From positions 2,232,001 through 2,296,000 of the forward strand of contig NZ_CP114278.1 of NCBI RefSeq assembly GCF_027105095.1: DNA of 64,000 bases, read 5' to 3'. This document shows, one piece after another, positions 45,293 through 64,000 of the stretch. Source of the stretch: Brevundimonas vesicularis (GTDB taxonomy: Bacteria > Pseudomonadota > Alphaproteobacteria > Caulobacterales > Caulobacteraceae). The notes beneath the pieces were generated by a model, which did not search any database, was not told the origin of the DNA, and saw only the letters and a list, made by a program, of their open reading frames with translations. Position numbers and translations under genes: made by a program. Each line of letters begins with the position of its first letter. Within the stretch, counting starts at the first letter, position 1.

Positions 45293-46612
45293 TTGATACG
45301 TCCTCAGTCCGGCTCTGCCGGATGGCGAGGCCGAGGCGCGGCTGTGTCCGCCCTGGTGCTCGTCGCGGCCGCGACCCTGTCGCCGCCTTCCTCTGCGCTC
45401 GCGCAGTCGCCCGCCGCGCCTGCCTCATCGGCGGCGCCCCTCATGGACCTCGATGCGGCCCTGCGCCGCGCGATCGCCGCCGACCCGGCCCGCGCCGGTC
45501 TCGAGGCGCGCCTGCGCGCCGTCGAGGCCGGGGTGCGCCAAGCCGGCGTGCGGCCCAACCCCACCCTTGGCCTGATGGTCGAGAACCTGCCGACCTTCGG
45601 CGCCGGTTCCTTCATCGACCAGACCCAGACCACCCTGACCTATGATCAGAGGCTGGAACGCGGCGGCGATCGACCGGCGCGGTCCAGCCTGGCCCGTAGC
45701 GAAGGCCTGCTGGTCGTCGCCGAGGCGCGGGTGGCCCAACTCGACCGGCTGGAACTGGTCCAGCGCGCCTGGACCGACGCCCTCGCCGCCGACGCCCAGG
45801 TGGAGATCGCCCGCGAACGACTGAATCTGGCCGAACGCTTCCAGGCCGAGGTGCAGCGGCGCGTCAACGCCGCCCGCGATCCCCTGTTCGCCGGGGCGCG
45901 CGCCGAGGCGGAACTGGCCCAGGCCCAGATCGAATTCGATCAGGCCGAGGTCGCGGCCCGCCTCGCCCGCATCGTGCTGGCGAAGTTCTGGGACGGCGTC
46001 GTCGACTTCTCGGTCGGCCGCGACGCCTTCGAGGACACCAGCGCGTCCCGGATCGCGGCGGGCGAGGTCTCGCCGGCCGACCTGGAGGTCTTCCAGGCGC
46101 GTCGGGCAATCTCCGAGGCCCAGGTTCGTGTCGAAGAGGCGCGCGCCGTGGCCGATCCGACGGTCAGCGTCGGGGTACGGCATATGTGGGCCAACGACGT
46201 CTCGCTGGTGTTCGGGGGCAGTATTCCCCTGCAGCGTTACGACACGAACCAGGGTGCCATCGACCGCGCACGGGCCGAAGGCGTCGCCGCCCAGGCGGAC
46301 ATGAACGCGCGCCGGATCGAACTGGATCGCGAGATCGCCCGTCTGCAGGTCCTGCTTCTGACCCAGGCCAACGAAGCGCGGCGGATTTCCGAGGAGACCC
46401 TGCCTCAGGCGGAACGGGCCGTGACCCTGGTCCGCGACGGCTTCGCCCGAGGGGGCTTCACCTACAACGACGTCATGTCCGCCCATACGGCCCTTCTGCA
46501 GGCCCGCGCCCGACGCGTGGCCGTGCTGCAGGCCTTCCACAACGACCGCGCCCGCCTCGACCGGCTGACCGGAGCGCACGCCGACTTGCTCGGCCTGGAG
46601 ACCCAACCATGA
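45293..46612 (+). CDS. czcC: CzcC-like outer-membrane efflux protein
   Basis: This 439-aa TolC-like protein starts at TTG 45293 behind GGAG. It has a signal (residues 1-40), and two OEP repeats of heptad helices (QARIEFDQAEVAARLARI, AERFQAEVQRRVNAARD). It forms the outer-membrane duct for the RND pump. Stop overlaps czcB start (ATGA). Confidence 0.88.
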   Translation: MIRPQSGSAGWRGRGAAVSALVLVAAATLSPPSSALAQSPAAPASSAAPLMDLDAALRRAIAADPARAGLEARLRAVEAGVRQAGVRPNPTLGLMVENLPTFGAGSFIDQTQTTLTYDQRLERGGDRPARSSLARSEGLLVVAEARVAQLDRLELVQRAWTDALAADAQVEIARERLNLAERFQAEVQRRVNAARDPLFAGARAEAELAQAQIEFDQAEVAARLARIVLAKFWDGVVDFSVGRDAFEDTSASRIAAGEVSPADLEVFQARRAISEAQVRVEEARAVADPTVSVGVRHMWANDVSLVFGGSIPLQRYDTNQGAIDRARAEGVAAQADMNARRIELDREIARLQVLLLTQANEARRISEETLPQAERAVTLVRDGFARGGFTYNDVMSAHTALLQARARRVAVLQAFHNDRARLDRLTGAHADLLGLETQP

Positions 46613-47874
46613 ACAGCATCCGAACCCCCAGGCTCGCCTATGGCGCGGCCGTAACCGTTCTGGCTCTTGCCCTGGCATCCTGCGGCGGCGGCACGGAGAA
46701 GGCGGAACCGACCGCCGAGGAGGCGGCGGCCGCCGCCGCCGACTACGAGCGCGGCCCGCACAACGGTCGTCTGCTCCGCGACGGCGACTTCGCCCTGGAA
46801 GTGACCATCTATGAAGAAGGTCCGGAACCGCTCTTCCGCCTCTATCCGTACCAAAACGACAAGCCGCTGGATCCGCGTCAGGTCCAGGTCACAATGGCCC
46901 TGAGCCGTCTGGGGCCGAAGGTGGATCGGTTCGTCTTCACCCCGGAGAACGACTATCTGGCCAGCCCCGGCGTCGTGTTCGAGCCTCACTCGTTCGACGT
47001 CTCGGTCAATGCGGTCCGGGCCGGCAATCGGTCCAACTGGACCTATCAGTCCTATGAGGGACGGACCACGATCACCGCGCAGGCGGCTCAGGCCGGCGGT
47101 GTGACGACGGAACGGGTCGGGCCGGCGGTGCTGGGAGAGACCCTGCCGCTGAACGGTCGGGTCGAGATCAAGCCCGAGGGCAAGGCCGAGGTCCATGCCC
47201 GCTATCCGGGTCGGATCGTCTCGATGAACGTGGAACTGGGTCAGTCGGTCCGGCGCGGCCAGGTCCTGGCACGCGTCGAGTCCAGCGAAAGCCTGCAGAC
47301 CTATACGGTCACAGCCCCGATCTCGGGCGTGATCACGGTCAAGAACGCCAACCCCGGCCAGATCACCGGCGGCGGCCAGCCCATGCTGGAGATCGGCGAC
47401 CCGTCCCAACTGCACGCGGAGTTCTTCCTCTATCCGCGTGACGCCGAACGCGTCCGTGTCGGCCAGCGTGTCGAGGTCAAGAGCTTGGCCGGCGACAGCC
47501 GGACCACGGCGACGATCGAGGCAATCCTGCCGTCGGCGGACGTGATGAGCCAGACGATGGTGGCCCATGTCCACCTGGGGGCCCAGTCGGGCGCCTGGCG
47601 ACCGGGTCTGGGCGTGTCGGGCGTCGTCCAGGTCGGGGCAGGCGAAGTTCCCTTGGCGGTCAAGACCAAGGCCCTGCAGCCGTTCCGCGACTTCACCGTC
47701 GTCTACGCCAAAGTCGGCGACACATACGAGGTGCGGATGCTCGATCTGGGCCGTCGGACCGACGAGTGGACCGAGGTTCTTGGCGGCATCGAGCCCGGCA
47801 CGACCTATGTCGTCGACGGCGCCTTCCTCATTCGCGCGGACATCGACAAGTCCGGCGCGAGCCACGACCACTAA
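46609..47874 (+). CDS. czcB: CzcB-like periplasmic adaptor (membrane-fusion protein), lipoprotein
   Basis: The protein has 421 aa from ATG 46609. A lipobox LALASC places Cys25 as the lipid anchor. A family-specific N-terminal domain (HNGRLLRDGDFALEVTIYE...) precedes the lipoyl-like and barrel domains (GRVEIKPEGKAEVHARYPG, SGVITVKNANPGQITGGG). A C-terminal HDH could touch metal. It links CzcA to CzcC and may bring metal to the pump. Confidence 0.9.
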   Translation: MNSIRTPRLAYGAAVTVLALALASCGGGTEKAEPTAEEAAAAAADYERGPHNGRLLRDGDFALEVTIYEEGPEPLFRLYPYQNDKPLDPRQVQVTMALSRLGPKVDRFVFTPENDYLASPGVVFEPHSFDVSVNAVRAGNRSNWTYQSYEGRTTITAQAAQAGGVTTERVGPAVLGETLPLNGRVEIKPEGKAEVHARYPGRIVSMNVELGQSVRRGQVLARVESSESLQTYTVTAPISGVITVKNANPGQITGGGQPMLEIGDPSQLHAEFFLYPRDAERVRVGQRVEVKSLAGDSRTTATIEAILPSADVMSQTMVAHVHLGAQSGAWRPGLGVSGVVQVGAGEVPLAVKTKALQPFRDFTVVYAKVGDTYEVRMLDLGRRTDEWTEVLGGIEPGTTYVVDGAFLIRADIDKSGASHDH

Positions 47875-51794
<3,920 letters not shown>

Positions 51795-51808
51795 TCGGAG
51801 ACACCTCC

Positions 51809-52480
51809 ATGTACAACGCAAACCGTCCCGCCCGCTCCGACCTGCCGACCACAGGTCAGCTTCTCAAATCCACCGGCATCGCCGCCGCCGTCGCCTCGGT
51901 CCTTCTCGTGACCGTGGTGTTGCCCAGCGAATACGGCGTCGATCCGACCCGTATCGGCTCGGCGCTCGGCCTGACTGAAATGGGCCGCATCAAGGTCCAA
52001 CTCGCCGCTGAAGCGGAGGCCGACGCCGCTGCCGATGCGGCCGCCGCGTCCGGCCTTTCGGAGGCTCCGCCGCTCGAAGTGGCGACGCCCGCCGCAGGGG
52101 GAACCGCTCCCGCCGCCCCCGCCGAAGCCGCGCCTGCTCCCGCCGCCGCGACGCCCGCTGTCGAGATGCGCGACGACGAGACCGTGATCACCCTCGCGCC
52201 TGACGAGGCCGCCGAGATCAAGCTGGTGATGGCCGAAGGCGCCAAGGCGCGGTTCACCTGGCTCAGCAGCGGGGGCAAGATCAACTTCGACACCCACGCC
52301 GACCGACCGGGTCTGTCCTACCACGGCTACGGCAAGGGCTCGGCCCAGCAGCAGTCCGGCGAACTGACGGCGGCCTTCACCGGCAGCCACGGCTGGTTCT
52401 GGCGCAACCGCACGGGCGAGCCGGTGACCATCACCCTGCGCACCCAGGGCGCCTATACCGAGATCAAGCGGGTGGTCTGA
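51809..52480 (+). CDS. Membrane-anchored protein of heavy-metal RND clusters
   Basis: The protein is 223 aa from ATG 51809, with GGAGA upstream (an ATG at 51791 overlapping the previous stop is less likely). One N-terminal span (STGIAAAVASVLLVTVVLP) is followed by an Ala/Pro-rich spacer (about 70-115) and a C-terminal beta domain (KLVMAEGAKARFTWLSSGGKINFDTHADR, ending RVV). Proteins of this layout regularly follow czcA and HupE-like genes. Exact role unknown. Confidence 0.78.
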   Translation: MYNANRPARSDLPTTGQLLKSTGIAAAVASVLLVTVVLPSEYGVDPTRIGSALGLTEMGRIKVQLAAEAEADAAADAAAASGLSEAPPLEVATPAAGGTAPAAPAEAAPAPAAATPAVEMRDDETVITLAPDEAAEIKLVMAEGAKARFTWLSSGGKINFDTHADRPGLSYHGYGKGSAQQQSGELTAAFTGSHGWFWRNRTGEPVTITLRTQGAYTEIKRVV

Positions 52481-52528
52481 CACCGGCTTGTGCGGATGGG
52501 TATCGTTCGTCTGACCCGACGCAGACTG

Positions 52529-52557
52529 AGGGCCGCTCGAAAGGGCGGCCCTCTTTT
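52529..52557 (+). terminator. Intrinsic terminator after the heavy-metal efflux operon
   Basis: AGGGCCGC and GCGGCCCT pair around an 8-nt loop and are followed by CTTTTC. It stands between the convergent anchor-protein and chrA genes. Confidence 0.75.
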
Positions 52558-52560
52558 CTT

Positions 52561-53745
52561 TCAACCCAGAGCAAGATGCCCGGCCACGGCTCCACCGATG
52601 ATAACCACGGGGGCCGCCCAGCGGCTTTTCAGGCGCCAGATCGCGGTCAGGGCGACGATGAAGATAAGCATGCCGACCACCAACGAGGGTACGGCGGCTC
52701 CCGTCGTCCAGGCCATCCGTAACCAGACGCCGGCGATGACGCCGACCACGGCGGCAGCGACGCCCGTCAGAGTGTCGTGCAGGGTCGGCGCCTCGACCAA
52801 GGCCTCCAGTCTTTCATAGAGAACCAGCGAAAAGGCGAAGGCCGGCAGGAACATCCCGGCCGTGATCACAAGGGCGCCGGGAACCCCGCCCGCCAGATAG
52901 CCGGCGAAGGTGCTGAAGATGACCAGGGGCGCCGGCAGGACGCCCGCGAAGGCCACCCCGTCCAGAAACGCCGGTCCCGAAATCCAGCCCCGTCCCACCG
53001 TGTCGGCCTGAACATAGGGAATGGCGGTATAGGCGCCGCCGAAGGTCAGCAGACCGCCCTTCAGACCGGCGAGGAACAGCAGCCAAAGCGTCGGCTCCGA
53101 CGCCTGGATCGCGACGGACGGACCAGCGGTGCGGTCGCCCATGAGATAGGCCAGGCCCAGCGCGACGATCAGAAGCCCTGCCAGAACCAATCTTGGCGCG
53201 CGCAATACGCCGACCACACCTCCAACCACGAGCGGCAGCCAGAAGGGTGCGTGCAAGAGCGTGGCCGCCAGGGCGAAGACGGCGACGCCCCAAAGTCGAG
53301 CCCCCGCTATCGCATGGCGGCCGATCTTCTCGACGGCGCGGGCGATCAACGCCAGGACCATGATCTGGACGCCGGTCAGGGCGCCGACCCAAATCATCCG
53401 GCCCGCTAGGAAGGTGTCGTAAAGCCAGGCCGCGCCCAGCATCAGGACAAACCCCGGCGCCATGAAACCCAGTCCGGCCAGAACGCCGCCCCAACGCCCC
53501 CTCGCCATCACTCCAAGGTGGACGCATAGTTCATGCGCTTCCGGACCGGGCAACGCCTGCATCACAGCGATCAGCTTGTTGAACCGTGCGCTGGAGATCC
53601 ATCGCTCTTCTTCGACCAACGCCCGCCGGATCATGGCGATCTGGGCGACGGGACCGCCGAAGGCCATCGCGCCGAAACCGAGAAACTTCAGGAACAGGCT
53701 CAGCAGGGAAAGTGAAGGGGGACGGGGTTCGAACGATGTCGTCAT
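52561..53745 (-). CDS. chrA: Chromate transporter ChrA (CHR family, long form)
   Basis: This 394-aa protein is the duplicated two-domain CHR form. Both domains show the motif: FGGPVAQIAMIRRALVEEERWI near the N-terminus and FGGAYTAIPYVQADTVGRGWI in the second half, with PGPEAHELCVHLG following the first. It exports chromate. It is convergent with the heavy-metal operon. No chrB regulator is present. Confidence 0.92.
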   Translation of the reverse strand: MTTSFEPRPPSLSLLSLFLKFLGFGAMAFGGPVAQIAMIRRALVEEERWISSARFNKLIAVMQALPGPEAHELCVHLGVMARGRWGGVLAGLGFMAPGFVLMLGAAWLYDTFLAGRMIWVGALTGVQIMVLALIARAVEKIGRHAIAGARLWGVAVFALAATLLHAPFWLPLVVGGVVGVLRAPRLVLAGLLIVALGLAYLMGDRTAGPSVAIQASEPTLWLLFLAGLKGGLLTFGGAYTAIPYVQADTVGRGWISGPAFLDGVAFAGVLPAPLVIFSTFAGYLAGGVPGALVITAGMFLPAFAFSLVLYERLEALVEAPTLHDTLTGVAAAVVGVIAGVWLRMAWTTGAAVPSLVVGMLIFIVALTAIWRLKSRWAAPVVIIGGAVAGHLALG

Positions 53746-56177: not shown

Positions 56178-56879
56178 TTAGGTATAGAAGTACCACCCGG
56201 ACGACCGCACCACCCGCATATGCGGTAGCGCATTTGAAACTGCGCCTTCCCAAATCAACGAACCTGTGTCGATCGCGTACTTAAGATCGTCTGTGATGTG
56301 ATCGTAGACCTCTCCGGTGATCCAAGTCGGCCAGTTGTCATCCTCAGAACAAAGCTTCGCGGCATAGTTCGCAGCGCGACCAATCCAGATCAGGTCATTG
56401 TTGCCCCGAATACCGCCGATCGTAGCCAGCACTTGAGACCGATCTACCCCCACGACGTGACGGAGTTGATATGTGCTCGTCGGGTAGCGCCGCTGGATAG
56501 CGGGGCGGACGATTTCCCTGACAGCCCAGTTTATCGTCAAGGCGGACCTGACAGCGCGGCTGTCCCGATCATCACCCATGTAGACAGCCATGATGCGGTC
56601 GCCGTCATACGACACGATCTCACCAGCGTCAGAGCGGATGACCTGCCCGGCACAGAGCAGAAACGCCTTGTAGACGTCTGCCGCGAACCAGTCAGCCGAC
56701 CCATCAACGAGCTGCGTTGAATCCGCTAGATCAGCATAGAGGATTGTGGCTTGGACCCGGCTGCCGTGTTTCGCGACTTTCAGGATTCCTTCGTGTGGGA
56801 CGACCGTTCCGGCCGTGATCTCCCACTCCCCTGCCAGCCCGTTCACGACGTAGTTGGTCAGATTCTCTTTGAATGCCAC
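56178..56879 (-). CDS. Class III nucleotide cyclase, Pycsar PycC-like
   Basis: This 233-aa protein starts with GTG 56879 one nt after the upstream stop. Metal-binding Asp residues are D50 in ILYADLADST and D94 in SYDGDRIMAVYMGD; N171 in GRAANYAAKL matches the transition-state Asn. The long GIRGNNDLIWIGRAANYAAKL block and short N-terminal EWEITAGTVVPHE segment are typical of Pycsar pyrimidine cyclases, which make cCMP or cUMP on phage infection. It follows a PycTM-like effector gene, which makes this assignment strong. Which nucleotide is made cannot be read from the sequence alone. Confidence 0.88.
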   Translation of the reverse strand: MAFKENLTNYVVNGLAGEWEITAGTVVPHEGILKVAKHGSRVQATILYADLADSTQLVDGSADWFAADVYKAFLLCAGQVIRSDAGEIVSYDGDRIMAVYMGDDRDSRAVRSALTINWAVREIVRPAIQRRYPTSTYQLRHVVGVDRSQVLATIGGIRGNNDLIWIGRAANYAAKLCSEDDNWPTWITGEVYDHITDDLKYAIDTGSLIWEGAVSNALPHMRVVRSSGWYFYT

Positions 56880-56880
56880 G

Positions 56881-57384
56881 TCAGTTCCCCAGCTTGACGA
56901 AGCCGGTGTCGAACGACGTAGCCACCAGGAAGATTAGCCAAAACGGAACGCTCACCATCGTCGCAGTGAACGCATCCTGTACCCGGTCAAACTTGCGCTG
57001 GAGTATTTCGGAGTTGCGCCAAACCTGAGCCAGCGCGTCGTCGATCAAGTCCGCATCGGTGGCCGCTTTCACGGCGGCGCAATAGGCGCTCTCGGTGTGC
57101 TGGGCCACGTCGCGGAAATACACTAGGGACTTTCTGCTCGCGCCTTCGAGGTTGGGGGCGTAAGCGGCAAATAACTTCCACAGGCTAACGCCGAGGATGA
57201 CAATGGTGGCCAAGGCGATGCCGCCCTCCCAGCCCATCGATGCCGTCAGCTTCAAGTTGACTGCGACGACCGCGAGCATGGCGACATCGAGTGCGAAGAG
57301 AAACGAAGCCTTGCCCTCCACTCGTGGGAACATCGCCTGCACCCGATCCAGCTGACCTAGGGCGAAGCCGCGTTCGTTGTCCAT
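56881..57384 (-). CDS. Pycsar effector, PycTM-like membrane protein
   Basis: This 167-aa protein has two adjacent spans (about 28-45 and 55-73) and a third near the C-terminus (141-157). Family marks are RVEGKASFLFALDV before TM1, and SLVYFRDVAQHTESAYCAAV then QVWRNSEILQRKFDRVQDA between TM2 and TM3. In Pycsar, cyclic pyrimidine binding triggers membrane damage and cell death or arrest. It lies between the GvpU-like gene (3 nt) and the cyclase gene (1 nt). Confidence 0.87.
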   Translation of the reverse strand: MDNERGFALGQLDRVQAMFPRVEGKASFLFALDVAMLAVVAVNLKLTASMGWEGGIALATIVILGVSLWKLFAAYAPNLEGASRKSLVYFRDVAQHTESAYCAAVKAATDADLIDDALAQVWRNSEILQRKFDRVQDAFTATMVSVPFWLIFLVATSFDTGFVKLGN

Positions 57385-57387
57385 GTG

Positions 57388-57894
57388 TTAGCTCCGCGAA
57401 ACCGACAGTTCACCGATGGTGAAGCCGTCAACTGAGCTAAGTTTTCCGCGCCAGAGGGCACCGCCGCTCGGGATCATCGTGCCATTATCATGGATGATCC
57501 TCGATCGTCTCAAATGCATGTATCCCGGTTGAGCCAGTTCAAATGGTCCTTCACTCGCGGGGTCGCGGTAGATGGATTTGTATTGATCCAGAGAGTCCGC
57601 AACGAGCGCATGGATTGATAGTTGCCCCTCGGGAGGATCCCCATGGATCAGCCCACGAAACTGCTTAGCCATCTCAGTCAGGTACGCATGACCGCTGATC
57701 AGCACGCCCGTGATAATCAGCCCGCGAACGTGCAGCGTGACTTGAAACTCCACTCCGTAGTTCTCTGCATACGTAAGCAACCACGCTAGGAGCCAGTCCG
57801 TGCCTTCCGGCTGGTCGAATATGCTCGGTTGGGACTCGTCAGCATCCGGCCCTGCCGACACTCCGTCAGTGACTTCGCTAGTTTGATCGGTCAT
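57388..57894 (-). CDS. GvpU-like protein, first gene of the Pycsar operon
   Basis: The protein is 168 aa from ATG 57894, chosen over GTG 57897 by the spacing of GAGGA. After a polar N-terminus it shows WLLTYAENYGVEFQVTLHVRGLIITGVLISGHAYL and a C-terminal block PGYMHLRRSRII...ALWRGKLSSVDGFTIGEL. This matches my memory of the gas vesicle accessory protein GvpU, with its Gly-Val-Leu-Ile-Ser-Gly and WRGKLSxVDGF motifs. No gas vesicle genes are nearby. Being first in a tight operon with PycTM and PycC suggests an accessory or regulatory role in the defence system. That role is inferred. Confidence 0.75.
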   Translation of the reverse strand: MTDQTSEVTDGVSAGPDADESQPSIFDQPEGTDWLLAWLLTYAENYGVEFQVTLHVRGLIITGVLISGHAYLTEMAKQFRGLIHGDPPEGQLSIHALVADSLDQYKSIYRDPASEGPFELAQPGYMHLRRSRIIHDNGTMIPSGGALWRGKLSSVDGFTIGELSVSRS

Positions 57895-58458
57895 CACTTC
57901 CTCGCTCGAATCAGAGTTGCCATTCTGTTCTCCGATGTCAGGGGATGCAATGACCGTCGTTATCCCAACACTCGATAGTTGTGGATCGTCGGTTTTTCAC
58001 TAGCGCAGAGGTCTACAAAATTGCGATCTTCTGACCTCGTCCAAACGGCCGACCGCCTGCGCTTGGAAAGGTCAGGTAAGCCCTATGAGCGGACAGGTTC
58101 AACGGCCGCTATGAGTCAGGTGCTGCCTTCGGACGCAAATGTCTGAGATACGCCAGTAGCGGTAGTTGGGCTGGCATCCGAATGCAGACATTCAGCGGTA
58201 CCGGGCAGATGGCCGTGAACGAGGCGATCAAGGCACTTCTGGTCGATGGTGAGAGGCGGCGTGCTACTCAGCTTCTAACGCCGCTGGGACGAGCGCGATT
58301 CAACGATTGTCTACGCTCAGCACAAAGGTGGCCAACATCACCGGCGCGCCTTGCGGAGGGACGTCGAGGACCGCTGAGCGTATGGAGCTTGACGCCGCTT
58401 TGCAGTACGCAAGTCGAACACAGCAGAGCCCGAGCGCGACTCGTGCCAGAGACGCCAT
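57895..58458. other. Intergenic region between two divergent defence operons
   Basis: This 564-nt stretch should hold both promoters. It includes a repeat-like segment near 58095-58195 (GACGCAAATGTCTGAG, GCAGACATTCAGCGG) of the degenerate type found between genes. Short frames across 58182-58595 overlap the ATPase start on other frames and have no domain. No RNA gene or retron structure was recognised by eye. Confidence 0.5.
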
Positions 58459-59823
58459 ATGCCGAACGCCAAGACTGGTACGTACCTGACCGAGCTCAAG
58501 CTCTCGAACATCAAGTCGTTCAAGGACGATCATGTTCTGAGCCTGCGCGACAGCGAAGATCGCTTGGCCAGGTGGACACTGATCCTGGGCGATAACGGCG
58601 TGGGTAAGACTACCTTGCTCCAGTGTATCGCCCACATGGCACCCTTCCGGAACACTAATGACCCGGACGGCGCGAAGGACCCCACCTTCTTTATTGAGCC
58701 TACGGGAGCGTCGGAAGTTTCCAATATTGAGGCGCTTGCACGTCATGGCGCGCAAAATGTGCGGCTCGAGGCGACGTTCGTCGCCGCTGGCGTGCTCGAC
58801 GAGTCGCAGCGAAACCGCCGGTCCCGGCAATTCACCAACTTCGTCGAGTTCGAGCGGAAGAGCGGCAAAATCGAGCGGTTCGAGGCAAGCCAGACTGAAG
58901 ACGTCATAAAAAAGGAACCCCTGATCATCGCCTACGGTGCCGGTCGAAAGCTCGGGCGGGGCAACATCGATCCGGTGTCCGCCACAGCCGGGATGGCCTC
59001 GCTCTTTGACGACCAGGTCGAGCTCGTGGACGCCGAGGAGTTGATTCAGCAGCTTGACTACGCGGCGCTGCGGCGAGGCAGCAAGATCTCCTCGCGCCAG
59101 AACAGGGTTATGAAGGAGATGATCGCGGCCCTGCTGCCCGACGTGGAGACGGCCGAGAACATTATCCTTTACGGCCCCTCCCCCCTCACGCCGCGGCAGA
59201 AGGTAGGGGTCGTAGTCCGCACCCCATACGGCGAAGTTCCACTAAGTGAGCTCAGCTTCGGTTATCAGACGATGACGGCGTGGCTGGCGGACATTGGCTA
59301 CCGGCTATTCCGGCACTATCCCGAGAGCGCCAACCCCTTGCTACAACCAGCTATCGTGCTGGTGGACGAGATCGACCTTCACCTCCACCCACGTTGGCAG
59401 CGGCAACTTCGCGAACGGCTGGCGGCCCACTTCCCGGCAGTGCAGTTCATCGCTACCGCCCACAGCCCGCTCATGGCCCAGGCCTACATGTCGGAGAACC
59501 TGGCCGTGGTGCGCCGCGAGGGCGACCATGCCGTGATCGTCAACGAGCCGGATGCGGTCAAGGGCTGGCGACTCGACCAGGTCATCACCTCGGAACTCTT
59601 CGGCCTGACATCGGCCTATTCGCCAGAGGTCGAGGCCCTTTTCGAGACACAGCGCCTACTCCGCACCAAGCGCCAGCGGACCCCGGCCGAGACCCTGCGG
59701 CTCGCCGAGGTCGAGCAGCAACTGATGGACCTGCCGCAGGAGAGTGATCCAGCCGACGACCGGGCACTGGCGATCATCCGCCGCGCCGCGGCGCGCTTGG
59801 AGCGGGACGGCGCCGACACGTGA
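58459..59823 (+). CDS. AAA-family ATPase, Septu PtuA-like
   Basis: This 454-aa ABC/SMC-type ATPase has Walker A GDNGVGKT (44-51), a signature-like LSELSFGYQ (262-270), Walker B LVDEIDLHLHP (301-311), and switch His in TAHSP (333-337). It ends in a charged helix. Such ATPases pair with HNH nucleases in Septu and in some retrons. The next gene, an HNH nuclease, overlaps it by 4 bp. It likely senses phage infection and controls the nuclease. Confidence 0.88.
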   Translation: MPNAKTGTYLTELKLSNIKSFKDDHVLSLRDSEDRLARWTLILGDNGVGKTTLLQCIAHMAPFRNTNDPDGAKDPTFFIEPTGASEVSNIEALARHGAQNVRLEATFVAAGVLDESQRNRRSRQFTNFVEFERKSGKIERFEASQTEDVIKKEPLIIAYGAGRKLGRGNIDPVSATAGMASLFDDQVELVDAEELIQQLDYAALRRGSKISSRQNRVMKEMIAALLPDVETAENIILYGPSPLTPRQKVGVVVRTPYGEVPLSELSFGYQTMTAWLADIGYRLFRHYPESANPLLQPAIVLVDEIDLHLHPRWQRQLRERLAAHFPAVQFIATAHSPLMAQAYMSENLAVVRREGDHAVIVNEPDAVKGWRLDQVITSELFGLTSAYSPEVEALFETQRLLRTKRQRTPAETLRLAEVEQQLMDLPQESDPADDRALAIIRRAAARLERDGADT

Positions 59824-60581
59824 TCAGAATAGAGCGCACAGCTCCGGCGCCGACCGATCTGAGGGCCGGTGATGCCCTTGTGCAGGCAATGCACCAAGCG
59901 GTAAGTGACCGACCGGGAGTGGCCGGTGGCAAAGACGAGCCCTTCACGTTCGACAACAAGATCTACGGCGCGACTCCGGTGAAGGACGCCCTGATCGCGA
60001 TGCAGCACGGCAAGTGCGCCTACTGCGAAGGCGACTTCCGCGCCTTCAGCTATGGCGACACTGAGCATCAGCGACCGAAGGCCTACAGCCAGCAGAACGT
60101 CGGCGCACCAACGATCCGTCCAGGCTACTACTGGCTCGCCTACGACTGGACGAACCTGGTCCTCTCCTGCGAGCGCTGCAATCGCTCACGAAAGAAGAAC
60201 CTCTTCCCGTTGCGCAACCCGGACGCCCGGGCGACGACCCCAGAGGCGGTGGCCAATGAAGAGCCGCTCCTGCTCGATCCGACCGGCGACGAGGATCCTA
60301 GGGCCCACATCCGTTTCGAGAACAGTGTGCCGACTGGTCTGAGCGAAATCGGTTGGACCACCATTGAATGCCTGAACCTCGACCGCATCGAGCTGAACGG
60401 GGTCCGTTGGCGCTACTTCCGCCATGTAACGGCGCTGCAAAAGCTCGTTCGAGCCGGGCTGCTGCCGGGCGCGAGCGCCGAGGCGCAGGCAGACGGCCAC
60501 GACGCCGCCGCCGAACTGGAGGTGATGGCGCAGGCGCAGGAGCCGTTCAGTGCCATGGTCCTCGACACCCTCGGCCGCTAG
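59820..60581 (+). CDS. HNH endonuclease, Septu PtuB-like
   Basis: The protein has 253 aa from GTG 59820 overlapping the ATPase stop. It has KCAYCEGDF (C66, C69), the catalytic TEHQRPK (H83), and LSCERCNRSRKKNLFP (C117, C120), a zinc-bound HNH/TIGR02646-like nuclease. A helical C-terminal domain (about 185-253) probably binds the ATPase. Its stop overlaps the convergent HExxH gene by a few bases. Confidence 0.9.
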   Translation: MIRIERTAPAPTDLRAGDALVQAMHQAVSDRPGVAGGKDEPFTFDNKIYGATPVKDALIAMQHGKCAYCEGDFRAFSYGDTEHQRPKAYSQQNVGAPTIRPGYYWLAYDWTNLVLSCERCNRSRKKNLFPLRNPDARATTPEAVANEEPLLLDPTGDEDPRAHIRFENSVPTGLSEIGWTTIECLNLDRIELNGVRWRYFRHVTALQKLVRAGLLPGASAEAQADGHDAAAELEVMAQAQEPFSAMVLDTLGR

Positions 60582-61384
60582 GCGCGCGCGTTCATCTCCG
60601 CCAGCAAGCCATCGACGAAGGCCAGGCCGAAGCGCGTCAGGTCGTTGTGGCCCACGACCTCCCTCGCCTCGCTAATCTCCTCGCCGATCTCGCGCCGTCG
60701 CTTCCGCGCGAATGCGGCCGTTTCGTCGAGGACTCCGTCCTGGGTCAGCAGCTCGGCCAAGTAGGCGTCGATCGCGGCGAAGACATAGAGGCCGTGCACG
60801 AGACCAGACACCGGGCGGTGGCATTGCTGCCACGGCGAATAGAGGGTCGCGCCGCTGGCCCGCACGACCGGCACCTGCGCCTCGATCAGCGTGAGCTGCA
60901 GGTGCATGGCCTCGTGGAGGATTGACTCGGCAGCCCGAAGCGCCGCGTGCGGCTCGCCGATGGGCAGTGACAGGAAGATTGAGCACGGCAGGTCAGGATC
61001 GCTATGGCTGGTGTCGTAGCCCGGACCGGGTGGCTCGAGGACATGAATCGAGCAAACGAGGGTCGAGATCGCCTGCTCCGCATCGGGCACACGGTCCAGG
61101 AACCCCCAGGCGTCGCCGAGCAAGGCATGAGCCTTCGAGCTAGGCGGGGCGGCGAAGGCCAGCCCCATCTCGGCATAGGGTTTGATCAGCGACGACGGCG
61201 GATCTTCGAAGCGCGATGGTGGTCCGGCGTCTACTGCTTCCCCGTCAATCCAGCGCTTGGTTCGATACGTGGCGGGGGTCAGGCCGCGCGCGGCCAGAAC
61301 CGGCCCCACCAGATGCTCCGCAAGGCCCGGAAACCACGGCCGGGTGAAGTCGAGGTCCAGGTCAGAAATCGACGGGCTCGGCAT
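60578..61384 (-). CDS. HExxH-motif peptide beta-hydroxylase-like protein
   Basis: The protein has 268 aa from ATG 61384; upstream frame in the overlapping oxygenase gene is not needed. The key motif is HEAMH (157-161) inside ESILHEAMHLQLTLIE. The protein also has YDTSHSDPDLPCSIFLSLP (about 123-141). It matches the HExxH peptide beta-hydroxylase-like group recently linked to RiPP tailoring (2-oxoglutarate-dependent with an unusual HExxH iron site). It overlaps the 2OG-Fe(II) oxygenase gene by 23 bp and is the last gene of the RiPP operon. Confidence 0.8.
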   Translation of the reverse strand: MPSPSISDLDLDFTRPWFPGLAEHLVGPVLAARGLTPATYRTKRWIDGEAVDAGPPSRFEDPPSSLIKPYAEMGLAFAAPPSSKAHALLGDAWGFLDRVPDAEQAISTLVCSIHVLEPPGPGYDTSHSDPDLPCSIFLSLPIGEPHAALRAAESILHEAMHLQLTLIEAQVPVVRASGATLYSPWQQCHRPVSGLVHGLYVFAAIDAYLAELLTQDGVLDETAAFARKRRREIGEEISEAREVVGHNDLTRFGLAFVDGLLAEMNARA

Positions 61385-61964
61385 AGAAGGAAAAGACGAT
61401 CGTGAACCGCTCCCCGGCGTGCATGCGCGAAACGGCGTGATGCGAGTCCGGCCCGATCGCAAAGCCGATCCCGCTGCGCGAGAGGGGCCGATGGATGGAA
61501 TGAATGTCGGTGGGATCGAAGCTGTTGAACAACATGAAGAGGCCGCCAGCCTCCACATCGAGCCCGCGGTTGAGCTGCACGGTCAGCCGGTGGGTCTCTT
61601 CGCCGACAAGGTAGTCATTGTGGATCGCGATGCGCTGACCGGGCGTCAACTTGTGTGCGATGGCGTTTAGGCGTGGCGTGAACGAAACGCCGAACGTCTC
61701 GGACAGCTGCCGGCGGAGCGCCGCCATAGCGCACTCGTCGAACAGGCGGGCGACCGCTGGCGGCAAAGTCTCATGGAACAGGCTGAATTCGTACTGCTCG
61801 TAGAAGTCGGTTTCGACCAGCCGCCAAGGCGCGTCCCGCTCGAACCAGTCCAGCAGCGCCGTCTCAGCGTGCGGATCCAGGCAGCGGTCCACCAGGATGT
61901 GCTTGAAAGGCGCCACCTGCAGATCCGGCCGGCCGATGTCGAACCCCGTGGCGGCGACGCTCAT
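61362..61964 (-). CDS. 2OG-Fe(II) oxygenase of the RiPP cluster
   Basis: This 200-aa jelly-roll dioxygenase has H115 and D117 in IAIHNDYL, the distal His (H176) in SHHAV, and 2-oxoglutarate-binding R186 in GERFTIVFSFY. It lies one nt after precursor peptide B. 2OG-Fe(II) oxygenases are known tailoring enzymes in cyclophane RiPP clusters (hydroxylating or further crosslinking the core). Confidence 0.87.
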   Translation of the reverse strand: MSVAATGFDIGRPDLQVAPFKHILVDRCLDPHAETALLDWFERDAPWRLVETDFYEQYEFSLFHETLPPAVARLFDECAMAALRRQLSETFGVSFTPRLNAIAHKLTPGQRIAIHNDYLVGEETHRLTVQLNRGLDVEAGGLFMLFNSFDPTDIHSIHRPLSRSGIGFAIGPDSHHAVSRMHAGERFTIVFSFYAEPVDF

Positions 61965-61965
61965 C

Positions 61966-62139
61966 TCAGCGATTGTGCCGGTGATAGGTGCGATTGTAGG
62001 CCGTCACATCGGCTTTGGCGTCGCCCGTGTTGCGCACCTCCTCGATAAGCCGGCGCAAGGCGGTGCTGCTAATCGCCTTCAGGCCGATCAGCTTCGATTC
62101 GGGTCCGGCGGCAAAGGCTTTGGGGTCCAACTCAGTCAT
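61966..62139 (-). CDS. RiPP precursor peptide B (57 aa)
   Basis: ATG 62139 overlaps the radical SAM stop (ATGA), and the TGA at 61966 is one nt before the oxygenase ATG. The leader part includes LIGLKAISSTALRRLIEEV. The C-terminus ends AYNRTYHRHNR, three aromatic-X-Arg triplets: YNR, YHR and HNR. This fits three-residue cyclophane formation by the adjacent radical SAM enzyme. It is too short for ordinary gene finding, but placement and shared motif with precursor A make it convincing. Confidence 0.85.
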   Translation of the reverse strand: MTELDPKAFAAGPESKLIGLKAISSTALRRLIEEVRNTGDAKADVTAYNRTYHRHNR

Positions 62140-63293
62140 GCGGCGGTGCTTCTCGGTTCCAAGGCGGGCAATTGCGCGATCGTCGCACGCATGGCCGCGA
62201 TGAGGTGCTTCTGGTCGGCGCAGAAAATGGTGGGATTCTCATATCCCGAGCCGTCGCGCCAGCGGTGGGCGACCATGCCGCCGCCGCATACGCTCAGTTC
62301 GGGGCAGGCTTGGCATAGACTGGACGTGGGTTGCTGCTGAGCGTGGTAGGCCGCGTAGGCTTGGCTCCCGAGGATGTCCGTCAGCCGATCACGGTGGACA
62401 TTCCAGGTGGTCTCGAAGCGGTCGGCTCCGGCGTGCGCCACCTTCAGGGTGTCGTTCTTCTGCACTTCGCCGTCGGGCTCAATCACTAGGATGCCGTAGT
62501 CGGAAAGGCCGACCCCTTCCTTTTGGGACCGCCCCCCCAAGATCAGCCGCAATAAGTCGTCGAGCAGGCGCACCCGCGGAGGATCGGCATCGGCAAGATA
62601 GGCCATCAGCAGACCTTCAAGCCATTTGCCGTACTCGAGCGTCTCAGGAGCCGCCTTGCCGAACGGAAGCCGATCCCAGTTCCCGTCGCGCACCAGGACG
62701 TCCACGCCCGGCGCCCCGGCAGCCTTCAGCGAGGCATAGACCGCCGCGGGGTCGGTGCGTGGGTCGATGACAGCCAACACCCCGGCGAACAAGGGCATCG
62801 CGTCCGGGCGCGCTCGCAGCCGGGCGATCGCCTTCGAAACCCGCGTGTAGCTCCCACGTCCGAGGTGATCGACCCGAAACTGGTCGTGGGTTTCTGCCGG
62901 GCCATCGATGCTGATCGACACGCCCACATCGTAGGCGATCAGGACATCGATGATGTCGTCGCTCAGCAGCAGGCCGTTGGTCTGGATGTGAAGCCCGCAA
63001 GGCTGCGGGAGCTCGGCGCGCAGCGCAGCGAGCAGCTCGGCCAGCCGCTTGCGTCCCAAGAGCAGCGGCTCGCCCCCGTGAAGTACGACGCTGAAGGGAA
63101 CCTGCTGCGCACGGAAGACGCCGCCCAGTTGCTCGGCGATGCGAGCGCCGGTCTCGGCGCTCATACGTTTGGGCTGATCGCGCCAGCCCTCGTCGCCCAT
63201 GTGATAGACGTAGCAGTAACTGCAATCGAGGTTGCAGCGGCTCGCAACCTTCAACAGCACCGTGTCGAGAACGAACGGTGTCTCCGCCGGCAC
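62136..63293 (-). CDS. Cyclophane-forming radical SAM/SPASM peptide maturase
   Basis: The protein has 385 aa from GTG 63293 overlapping the precursor A stop (TAGTG). It has the radical SAM cluster C20xxxC24xxC27 in SRCNLDCSYCYVYHMGD, then VVLHGGEPLLLG, IQTNGLLL, and VSISIDGPAETHDQFR. The C-terminal SPASM-like region has LCQACPELSVCGGGMVAHRW and NPTIFCADQ. The YCYVYxxGD segment matches maturases that form three-residue cyclophanes (triceptides) at aromatic residues. It lies between two precursor peptides, which it probably both modifies. Confidence 0.9.
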   Translation of the reverse strand: MPAETPFVLDTVLLKVASRCNLDCSYCYVYHMGDEGWRDQPKRMSAETGARIAEQLGGVFRAQQVPFSVVLHGGEPLLLGRKRLAELLAALRAELPQPCGLHIQTNGLLLSDDIIDVLIAYDVGVSISIDGPAETHDQFRVDHLGRGSYTRVSKAIARLRARPDAMPLFAGVLAVIDPRTDPAAVYASLKAAGAPGVDVLVRDGNWDRLPFGKAAPETLEYGKWLEGLLMAYLADADPPRVRLLDDLLRLILGGRSQKEGVGLSDYGILVIEPDGEVQKNDTLKVAHAGADRFETTWNVHRDRLTDILGSQAYAAYHAQQQPTSSLCQACPELSVCGGGMVAHRWRDGSGYENPTIFCADQKHLIAAMRATIAQLPALEPRSTAA

Positions 63294-63442
63294 TATCGAT
63301 TGTGCCGGTTGTGCGTCCGGTTGTAGCGACCGGCAGCTGCCTTCACTTCGGGCCCGGTGACTTCGCCGATGAGCCGCGCCAGGGCCGCAGAGGGCACCTC
63401 CTTGGCGCGGAGAATGGTGTCGGTTTGCTGCGGTCGATCCAT
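63293..63442 (-). CDS. RiPP precursor peptide A (49 aa)
   Basis: The ATG at 63442 has GAGGAA at ideal distance. The leader includes EVPSAALARLIGEV, a helix like that in precursor B. The C-terminus RYNRTHNRHNR carries three triplets YNR, HNR and HNR. Precursor B has the same order. The stop overlaps the radical SAM GTG start by one base. It is the first gene of the operon. Confidence 0.87.
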   Translation of the reverse strand: MDRPQQTDTILRAKEVPSAALARLIGEVTGPEVKAAAGRYNRTHNRHNR

Positions 63443-63911
63443 GGCACTTCCTCGTTCAGCGTGGAAAATAGCCTGAGCGGTCGAAGTTTTCCACCCCTTT
63501 TGTCGTAGCGTATATGCTGCGGGTTCTAAACATTGATCCTAGTTAATGGGCGTTTATTGACAGAGTCTAACCTCCACCTCAATGTGCAACCAACACGTCC
63601 TATCCGTTAGGATGGATTAATACTTTGCTAGTCCTATTGATAAAGCTATAATTAGGCGCCTGCTATTGCGCGGAACTCGATCCTGATACTCGCTCCGCAG
63701 AGCGCTGAGTCTTGGTATGCCGCGCTGCGCACATTGCTCCAGCTCCGCTCGTCTTTCAGCTTCCGCCGCTGCCGTCGAAAAACGGACGCTTTGGACTTCT
63801 CCCTTGAGTCAGAAACGGACGTGGGCAATCGACCACGTCAGATGAAGCTATTTGCCCGCGACCGTGTCGTCCAAGTACGGATGTCCGATCGACCATCTTC
63901 CGCACCCGACA
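63443..63911. other. A+T-rich intergenic region upstream of the RiPP operon
   Basis: The 469 nt here are richer in A and T (for example around 63590-63650) than the rest. The RiPP promoter should be within the first 100 nt, next to the inverted repeat at 63461-63494. Frames inside are low-complexity on both strands. Repeats of ATCGACCA-like sequence at 63828-63836 and 63889-63895 may be binding sites for the regulator to the right. Confidence 0.5.
63461..63494. promoter_or_regulatory. GTGGAAAA inverted repeat upstream of the RiPP operon
   Basis: GTGGAAAA (63461-63468) and TTTTCCAC (63487-63494) are exact inverted repeats separated by 18 nt, beginning 18 nt before the precursor A ATG. It may be an operator or a 5'-leader hairpin. 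Confidence 0.5.
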
Positions 63912-64000
63912 ATGGGACACCAAAAGGATTCCTCGGATAACGGGCCGCGGCGAGATCACGAGGAGTATACCGTCGGCGTCGTCAAAGCTTGCGCGGAGAA
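63912..64000 (+). CDS. Probable IclR-family regulator, N-terminal fragment
   Basis: An ATG at 63912 opens a frame running off the right edge (29 codons seen). After a polar start (MGHQKDSSDNGPRRD) it reads EEYTVGVVKACAE, resembling the beginning of IclR-type winged helices (YxVxxVxxACxxL). No good ribosome-binding site is visible. Too little is present to be sure. Confidence 0.45.
   Translation, partial: MGHQKDSSDNGPRRDHEEYTVGVVKACAE

Follow-up and report, generated by a model that had tools for sequence, protein, structure and literature searches.

In this study, a 64,000-nucleotide stretch of the Brevundimonas vesicularis genome (contig NZ_CP114278.1, positions 2,232,001 to 2,296,000; hereafter the window) was found to carry a five-gene cluster for a ribosomally synthesised and post-translationally modified peptide (RiPP) of the triceptide kind, here called the YhhABCD module, which directly abuts a Septu-type gene pair, PtuA and PtuB. 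The module has near-invariant peptide cores and is tightly and repeatedly linked to PtuAB in other bacteria, and different neighbours stand behind near-identical cassettes. The linkage is an observation, and from it we infer, at somewhat under even chances, a functional coupling by which the module and the adjoining PtuA-PtuB pair would form one anti-phage defence unit. By analogy with the reverse transcriptase (RT) and multicopy single-stranded DNA (msDNA) of type I-A retrons, the best reading is that the triceptide module would regulate or arm interchangeable anti-phage effectors. The original prediction, made from the letters of the window alone, had described a free-standing peptide operon. 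The operon is real, but this description is incomplete, as the commonest conserved neighbour of such operons is a phage-defence ATPase-nuclease pair which it did not mention. The features of the locus are as follows.

63293..63442, minus strand: YhhA precursor 1, 49 residues, C-terminal core YNRTHNRHNR (NF041705, 52.6 bits, cut-off 36)
63296..63325, minus strand: core of precursor 1, motifs YNR, HNR and HNR (core counts over 83 precursors)
62136..63293, minus strand: YhhB, radical S-adenosylmethionine (SAM)/SPASM three-residue cyclophane maturase, 385 residues, GTG start (NF041707, 486.9 bits, cut-off 445)
61966..62139, minus strand: YhhA precursor 2, 57 residues, core YNRTYHRHNR (NF041705, 56.4 bits, cut-off 36)
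61969..61998, minus strand: core of precursor 2, motifs YNR, YHR and HNR (core counts)
61362..61964, minus strand: YhhC, 2-oxoglutarate (2OG)-Fe(II) oxygenase, 200 residues (NF041706, 232.6 bits, cut-off 150)
60578..61384, minus strand: YhhD, predicted alpha-ketoglutarate-dependent HExxH (aKG-HExxH) peptide hydroxylase, 268 residues (TIGR04267, 100.8 bits, cut-off 40)
59820..60581, plus strand: PtuB-like HNH nuclease, 253 residues, convergent with the operon (PADLOC PDLC00339, E 3.8e-72)
58459..59823, plus strand: PtuA-like AAA ATPase, 454 residues, with Walker A and B (PADLOC PDLC00304, E 2.1e-137; PDB PtuA and retron I-A PtuA chains)

The operon itself was as predicted. All five genes lie on the minus strand at the coordinates given for them, in the order precursor A, maturase, precursor B, oxygenase and HExxH protein, and the spacing is exact: precursor A and the maturase overlap by 1 bp, the maturase and precursor B by 4 bp and the oxygenase and HExxH genes by 23 bp, while a single base separates precursor B from the oxygenase. 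Both peptides and all three enzymes exceed their NCBIfam cut-offs. The proposed enzymology, that of a radical SAM/SPASM three-residue cyclophane maturase, was also right, and the class already bears the name YhhABC (NF041707 match; review PMC11002830). YhhB matched the radical SAM domain of ChlB (9gm3, E 3.4e-61) and has its CxxxCxxC motif at residue 20. The name YhhD for the product of the HExxH gene was coined in this analysis; its open reading frame (ORF) can be extended to 61558, a merely mechanical first start, and the gene was taken as 60578-61384. By these family matches the operon is of the known YhhABC triceptide kind with an added HExxH hydroxylase, in a two-precursor form. Downstream, the end of PtuB overlaps the end of YhhD by 4 bp in convergent orientation, and PtuA and PtuB likewise overlap by 4 bp. 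The AAA ATPase adjoining an HNH-type protein, matching PADLOC PtuA1 and PtuB1, is the composition expected of Septu; the Pfam HNH match of the window PtuB fell under the cut-off, and no PDB sequence matched it at E 0.01.

The comparison was made over 77 loci, comprising 73 from a one-genome-per-species scan, the window's own record (L011) and three congeners (L009, L010 and L012). The scan query, alignment A1, joined 26 YhhB sequences, namely the window's and 25 of 120 listed homologues (2058 found), and alignment A2 joined the window with 34 of 120 listed homologues (144 found); a genome scan with a single protein as query confirmed no locus, and alignment A1 succeeded. These loci are a non-random sample, coming from a pattern scan on close YhhB relatives with the lower-scoring loci of an earlier search left out. 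The Yhh and Ptu hidden Markov models (HMMs) were built from the window and the same loci, so that the conservation counts lean towards the family, and several loci are contigs of metagenome-assembled genomes (MAGs) whose taxon names are possibly wrong (e.g. L064, L076 and L088).

Unprompted clustering of the flanking ORFs returned an AAA ATPase and an HNH-type protein, each in 40 of the 77 loci. With the window-seeded HMMs, PtuA and/or PtuB was found beside the module in 41 loci, with partial cases in L047, L076 and L104; the total is 42 because L011 is too short to show the Ptu genes which the window itself shows. In 40 of 41 measured loci no more than 470 bp separates the nearest Ptu ORF from a Yhh ORF (L041, at 1141 bp, is the exception), the distances being taken between stop-to-stop ORFs and thus lower bounds at 5' ends. 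The pair stands downstream on the opposite strand in 30 loci (among them L101, where it sits between C and D), upstream on the same strand in 6, upstream on the opposite strand in 5 and downstream on the same strand in 1. In L046 (4857-5627) the PtuB matches are split across two ORFs, by decay or sequencing error. The PtuAB-linked loci span eight phyla by record title, many of them MAGs. At least 13 changes in the presence of PtuAB are needed on the YhhB tree (again 13 with four cut loci and L111 removed, and 12 when partial loci are removed too), and at least 7 in its arrangement (5 without partial loci). So many changes favour repeated loss, gain or re-association over a single fixed gene order.

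Different genes were found at the same place behind similar cassettes. L072 and L073, whose titles both name Nitrosomonas, are 96.7% identical at the DNA level over a 3269-bp stretch that begins about 540 bp ahead of the yhhA ORF and stops about 30 bp short of the yhhD end. Past this stretch L072 has a gene for a HEAT-repeat protein (with a SieB match under threshold, E 0.006), and in L073 PtuB-PtuA occupy the same position in convergent orientation. Similarly L076, whose PtuA sits downstream on the module's own strand and is truncated where the contig ends, is 85.6% and 91.0% identical to the HEAT-type loci L062 and L110 over about 3 kb ending at yhhD. The nearest recognised neighbour over the 77 loci was PtuAB in 42, a HEAT-repeat protein in 7, SIR2 in 4, a RADAR-like system in 4, an OLD-like AAA ATPase in 2, DUF2971 in 2, McrBC in 1 and Fic in 1, with none recognised or the contig cut in 14. 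The HEAT calls were made by scan in L058 and L072 and the SIR2 calls in L050 and L068, other members being assigned by clustering. Among the RADAR-like loci, RdrB-like proteins occur in L094, L095 and L098, and a KAP NTPase in L086 and L095 (below cut-off in L098). L087, counted among the 14, has a PDC-M36A match about 1.4 kb upstream which was not included.

Plasmids gave further cases: on Novosphingobium plasmid pLA4 (L132, 3214-6997) a short Argonaute and SMEK pair is divergent from yhhAB, on a Rhizobium tumorigenes plasmid yhhAB is divergent from a Fic gene, and the yhhABC of Vibrio plasmid L131 has a kinase, a phosphatase, an AAA ATPase and two DUF2971 genes within 7 kb. By family matches, several of the alternative neighbours are known or candidate defence genes. 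The HEAT-repeat family, downstream of yhhD in L053, L057, L058, L060, L062, L072 and L110, takes the place of PtuAB and is a candidate new effector; its L058 member appears by eye to be hydrophobic near the N-terminus. In L061 (2888-4649) an MvdD-type ATP-grasp gene lies just upstream of YhhABCD and perhaps belongs to a second RiPP system.

The distribution of PtuA was examined in wider sets. Among 385 genomes at class level, YhhB (E <=1e-60) was found in 6 and PDLC00304-type PtuA (E <=1e-40) in 9, and the same PtuA type in 24 of 398 genomes at phylum level. PtuA of the window type (above 440 bits) is rare, with 4 and 3 genomes respectively, the window's own being in both counts. These genomes are G000 and G359 (the latter being L051), where it is linked to YhhABCD, G204, G520 and G528, where it is unlinked, and G294, whose contig ends just past PtuB. 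Smaller searches around G528 (48 genomes) and G204 (43 genomes) gave no additional strong PtuA match, and a plasmid search with the window PtuA gave nothing at 1e-50. No Yhh gene was present in 26 loci of more distant PtuA (L137-L144 and L185-L202, some of them short), and five distant maturase relatives (L146, L147, L148, L152 and L153) had none of PtuA, PtuB or the Yhh genes. As a defence-island control, 40 of 59 places with a SIR2_2 domain, hand-picked and all from the window's class, were inspected over about 6 kb of flank or as far as the contig reached, the domain serving only as a proxy for a defence locus; PtuA, PtuB and Yhh genes were found in none of the 40.

In the PtuA trees the module-linked sequences fall on one side of a branch and the unlinked on the other, with a Shimodaira-Hasegawa-like approximate likelihood ratio (SH-aLRT) support of 78 in the first tree, and 93/79 and 92% of 200 bootstrap trees in the second, from which six more unlinked rows were dropped. 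A single clade of linked PtuA is thus suggestive and not strong, because only three unlinked members of the same subfamily and one cut member were available. The window PtuA is nearest to that of L063, where the pair lies upstream, whereas the window YhhB is nearest to L042 and L041. Distances of YhhB and PtuA correlate (Spearman 0.41, none of 999 permutations being as high) in a comparison using 11 of 29 unlinked PtuA loci, hand-picked, and leaving out the partial PtuA of L047 and L076 as well as L104, which has PtuB only; L135 is from the same genome as L051, so the 40 linked rows are 39 distinct ones. As the histories of PtuA and YhhB differ within the linked clade, PtuAB pairs seem to have been swapped between YhhABCD loci while staying in the company of the module.

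Homologues of the precursors, whose absence from all similar loci the original prediction had named as evidence against itself, were found in 76 of the 77 loci, 83 precursors in total. All 83 end in [YF][DN]Rx[HYF][NH]RH[NS]R with at most two residues beyond, and R3, R7, H8 and R10 of the core are identical throughout; the middle (X) residues of the core motifs are Asn, Asp or His, and Ser once. Three cyclophanes per peptide are predicted for the window, because each of its precursors has three Omega-X-Arg motifs. For the family, YhhB is reported to link Tyr C3 to Arg Cbeta and His C2 to Arg Cbeta, and triceptide cross-links connect residues i and i+2 (PMC11002830); the same chemistry would be expected here. 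Cases lacking YhhD (L099, L103) or YhhC (L009, L010, L012) are too few to relate core residues to the loss of either enzyme.

YhhC has H115, D117, H176 and R186 (converted from ORF to protein numbering), each conserved in 95% or more of the residues aligned from 71 homologous ORFs, and in YhhD no variation was seen at H157, E158, H161 and H197 across 35 aligned sequences. These residues are presumed to bind metal or 2-oxoglutarate. By sequence, YhhD matched ChlH (8s5f, E 1.7e-10). Its predicted fold is confident, with a mean predicted local distance difference test (pLDDT) score of 93.2, and gave five PDB matches at E <=0.001, which are four ChlH chains of 8s5f and SjiH (22ob); the ChlH chains aligned with a template modelling (TM) score of 0.70-0.72 of the query (E 1e-10 at TM 0.70) and a root-mean-square deviation of 7.6-7.9. 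With its HExxH motif, distal His and ChlH-like predicted model, the fifth gene product is predicted to be an aKG-HExxH hydroxylase resembling ChlH. Hydroxylation of Asp and His is described for an aKG-HExxH enzyme that is fused to a radical SAM protein (PMC12636437). Family membership together with the intact conserved residues points to probable peptide hydroxylation by YhhC and YhhD, the original prediction having put forward a doubly hydroxylated product.

The two-precursor form is a minority one. By gene order, A-B-A-C-D was found in 7 of the 77 loci, compared with A-B-C-D in 51, B-A-C-D in 5, A-B-C in 4 (two cut), A followed by a joint D-B ORF in 3 (L009, L010 and L012) and other orders in 7. 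The seven loci form one clade in the YhhB tree (SH-aLRT 96) with the B-A-C-D group as sister; the core of precursor 2 is YNRTYHRHNR in all seven, and that of precursor 1 is YNRTHNRHNR in three and YNRTYNRHNR in four. With one clade and its kept cores, the arrangement looks like a single-origin, maintained variant. In L091 (same contig as L145) a second ORF with matches to both YhhB and YhhD comes after YhhABCD.

A mechanism can be proposed on these grounds. YhhB would cross-link each precursor at its three Omega-X-Arg motifs, and YhhC and YhhD would add beta-hydroxyl groups, probably on Asn, Asp or His at the X positions. The near-invariant modified peptide would stay inside the cell (the five genes include none for an exporter, a protease or immunity) and would act as a control element of the adjacent effector. 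It may hold the PtuA ATPase and PtuB nuclease inactive, or license them, until infection disturbs the peptide or its enzymes; freed PtuAB would then attack nucleic acid and halt the phage. Elsewhere the same module would pair with SIR2, RADAR-like, McrBC, Fic or other genes. In this scheme we infer which way control runs, what the trigger is and what is targeted. Retrons, CBASS and Pycsar share this layout of one constant module and an adjacent effector that can be exchanged. Modified YhhA is proposed in the place of RT-msDNA because retron Eco7 gives a direct precedent, its PtuAB being toxic unless RT and msrmsd are both there to neutralise it (PMC11555353); Septu EcB88 cuts tRNA-Tyr during infection (PMC13096335). 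In its boldest form, which we hold tentatively and with less conviction than the defence unit itself, a cyclophane-cross-linked, hydroxylated ribosomal peptide would be the sensor or lock of an immune system. It would correspond to the msDNA of retrons and serve interchangeable effectors (PtuAB, SIR2, RADAR-like, prokaryotic Argonaute-SMEK, Fic, McrBC), and Septu would here supply no more than the effector half of a wider system not yet recognised as such.

The wider setting also bears on the interpretation, with one further annotated feature next to the Septu pair.

56178-57384, minus strand: Pycsar-like pair PycC and PycTM (PADLOC/Pfam)

These genes lie about 1 kb beyond PtuA, and the intervening ORF 57388-57897 (169 residues) had no Pfam or PADLOC match. 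Upstream of yhhA1, past the right end of the window (L273, 1863-7302), two overlapping tyrosine-recombinase-like genes and one integrase-like gene were recognised by eye, a hint that the defence cluster may be part of a mobile island; no tRNA was found on L273. A recombinase common to this island and plasmid pLA4 was rejected, as BLAST gave no significant match. A phage-borne cassette was likewise rejected: phage records held no YhhB relative at E 1e-20, and of 44 pattern-matched stretches in IMG/VR none was confirmed. At 45293-53745 the ORFs read, by eye, like a heavy-metal resistance-nodulation-division efflux set and a chromate-type transporter.

Several observations weigh against a defence unit of module and PtuAB. 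No PtuAB was detected in 35 of the 77 loci, and 14 of these 35 have no recognised effector or are cut (L009, L010, L012, L061, L071, L075, L077, L083, L087, L089, L091, L103, L106 and L111). The HEAT-repeat family, the neighbour in seven Ptu-less loci, matched no PADLOC model in the two members scanned. Same-subfamily PtuAB stands without the module in three of five informative strong hits (L136, L183 and L184), the agreement of YhhB and PtuA distances is only moderate, and in the window PtuAB and the operon are convergent and therefore not co-transcribed. Since a Pycsar pair adjoins the locus and RiPP clusters are enriched near defence systems, island clustering contributes to the association.

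These points lead to the leading alternative, that YhhABCD is an independent module, anti-phage or other, travelling in defence islands, for which PtuAB, SIR2, RADAR-like and other genes are favoured neighbours and not partners. The nearby Pycsar genes and the recombinase-like genes beyond yhhA1, the module-free PtuAB of L136 and L183 and the many different kinds of neighbour all agree with it. It becomes more serious because RiPP clusters in general lie near defence systems: lanthipeptides are enriched there with an odds ratio of 4.9 within about 40 kb (PMC12715929), and marine RiPP families co-localise with them (Gao et al. 2024, PMC11118758). On the other hand, such travel would not readily account for the absence of PtuAB from all 40 SIR2_2 loci of the window's class, for its position within 470 bp of the module in 40 of 41 loci, or for the single clade of linked PtuA despite rearrangements, and we consider it rather unlikely, though a genuine contender. 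An ordinary triceptide natural-product cluster (antibiotic, signal or metallophore) beside coincidental defence genes is improbable. The biosynthetic proteins do come from characterised RiPP enzyme families, and in its passages on YhhB the review PMC11002830 treats the enzyme purely as natural-product enzymology. However, the exporter, leader protease and immunity gene of an exported bacteriocin-type RiPP cluster are not among the five operon genes (the rest of the genome was not searched), and the neighbour statistics of PtuAB, on which the free-standing natural-product operon was demoted to a rival, do not fit chance company. Competitive peptides are expected to vary, unlike the invariant YhhA core with its four residues identical in all 83 precursors. 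It is very improbable that the HExxH enzyme is a processing step releasing an active core, perhaps on infection, by oxidative or hydrolytic cutting as in PflC/PosC, aKG-HExxH enzymes which hydroxylate and cleave the backbone (PflC hydrolysing without a leader; PMC12636437), for although no further protease is present in the operon, YhhD aligns best with the hydroxylase ChlH and its gene is absent from some A-B-C loci (L099, L103 and Vibrio plasmid L131).

YhhABC, aKG-HExxH enzymes, Septu and the general idea of RiPPs acting against phages are already known. The YhhABC triceptides (NF041705, NF041707, NF041706), reportedly the work of Sugiyama et al. 2022, share with the locus a precursor, maturase and oxygenase over curated cut-offs and the Tyr/His-X-Arg motifs; the locus differs in the two precursors that flank its maturase and in the added HExxH hydroxylase. 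In ChlB/ChlH (9gm3, 8s5f) the maturase is fused to the aKG-HExxH hydroxylase; YhhB resembles the radical SAM domain of ChlB and YhhD the fold of ChlH, whereas here the genes are separate and the peptide substrate differs, although the two form one ORF in congeners L009, L010 and L012. With Septu the locus shares an AAA ATPase and an HNH-type protein, here of a subfamily that 42 of the 77 module loci have next to the RiPP genes. Type I-A retrons likewise have a PtuAB-type effector beside an unrelated module, whereas the control element proposed here would be a modified peptide and not RT plus msDNA; a retron was rejected for this locus, with no RT among the nine assigned genes of 56178-63442 and no Rfam retron family over 58000-64000. 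On the basis of adjacency, the PADLOC authors identified retron I-A as a variant of Septu; the Septu-associated genes of their paper are RT and Hma, and 'radical SAM' is absent from its main text (PMC8565338). We class the present locus as a two-precursor YhhABCD cluster with a Septu pair coupled to it, following the treatment of retron I-A as Septu type II. RiPP families, including radical SAM-modified PqqA-like ones, have been described near or co-expressed with defence systems (PMC11118758, PMC12715929), within 20-50 kb and with varied systems, whereas here one RiPP family directly abuts one effector pair. The words 'cyclophane' and 'Septu' are absent from the main text of PMC11118758, and PMC13249269 mentions both Septu and RiPP in unrelated lists. 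The open-licence literature yielded no paper joining YhhABC or triceptides to PtuAB, and no stated biological role for YhhA-type triceptides.

The repeated adjacency to defence genes in unrelated bacteria suggests that the modified peptide may control or join in bacterial immunity, and the gene neighbourhood points to phage defence as a testable role for YhhA triceptides. Control of PtuAB or other effectors by the peptide would add a RiPP to the nucleotides, msDNA and proteins that serve as control elements of bacterial immunity, and would give radical SAM cyclophane chemistry a defined function inside the cell. Such a role would also explain the near-invariant peptide core and an operon without an export gene.

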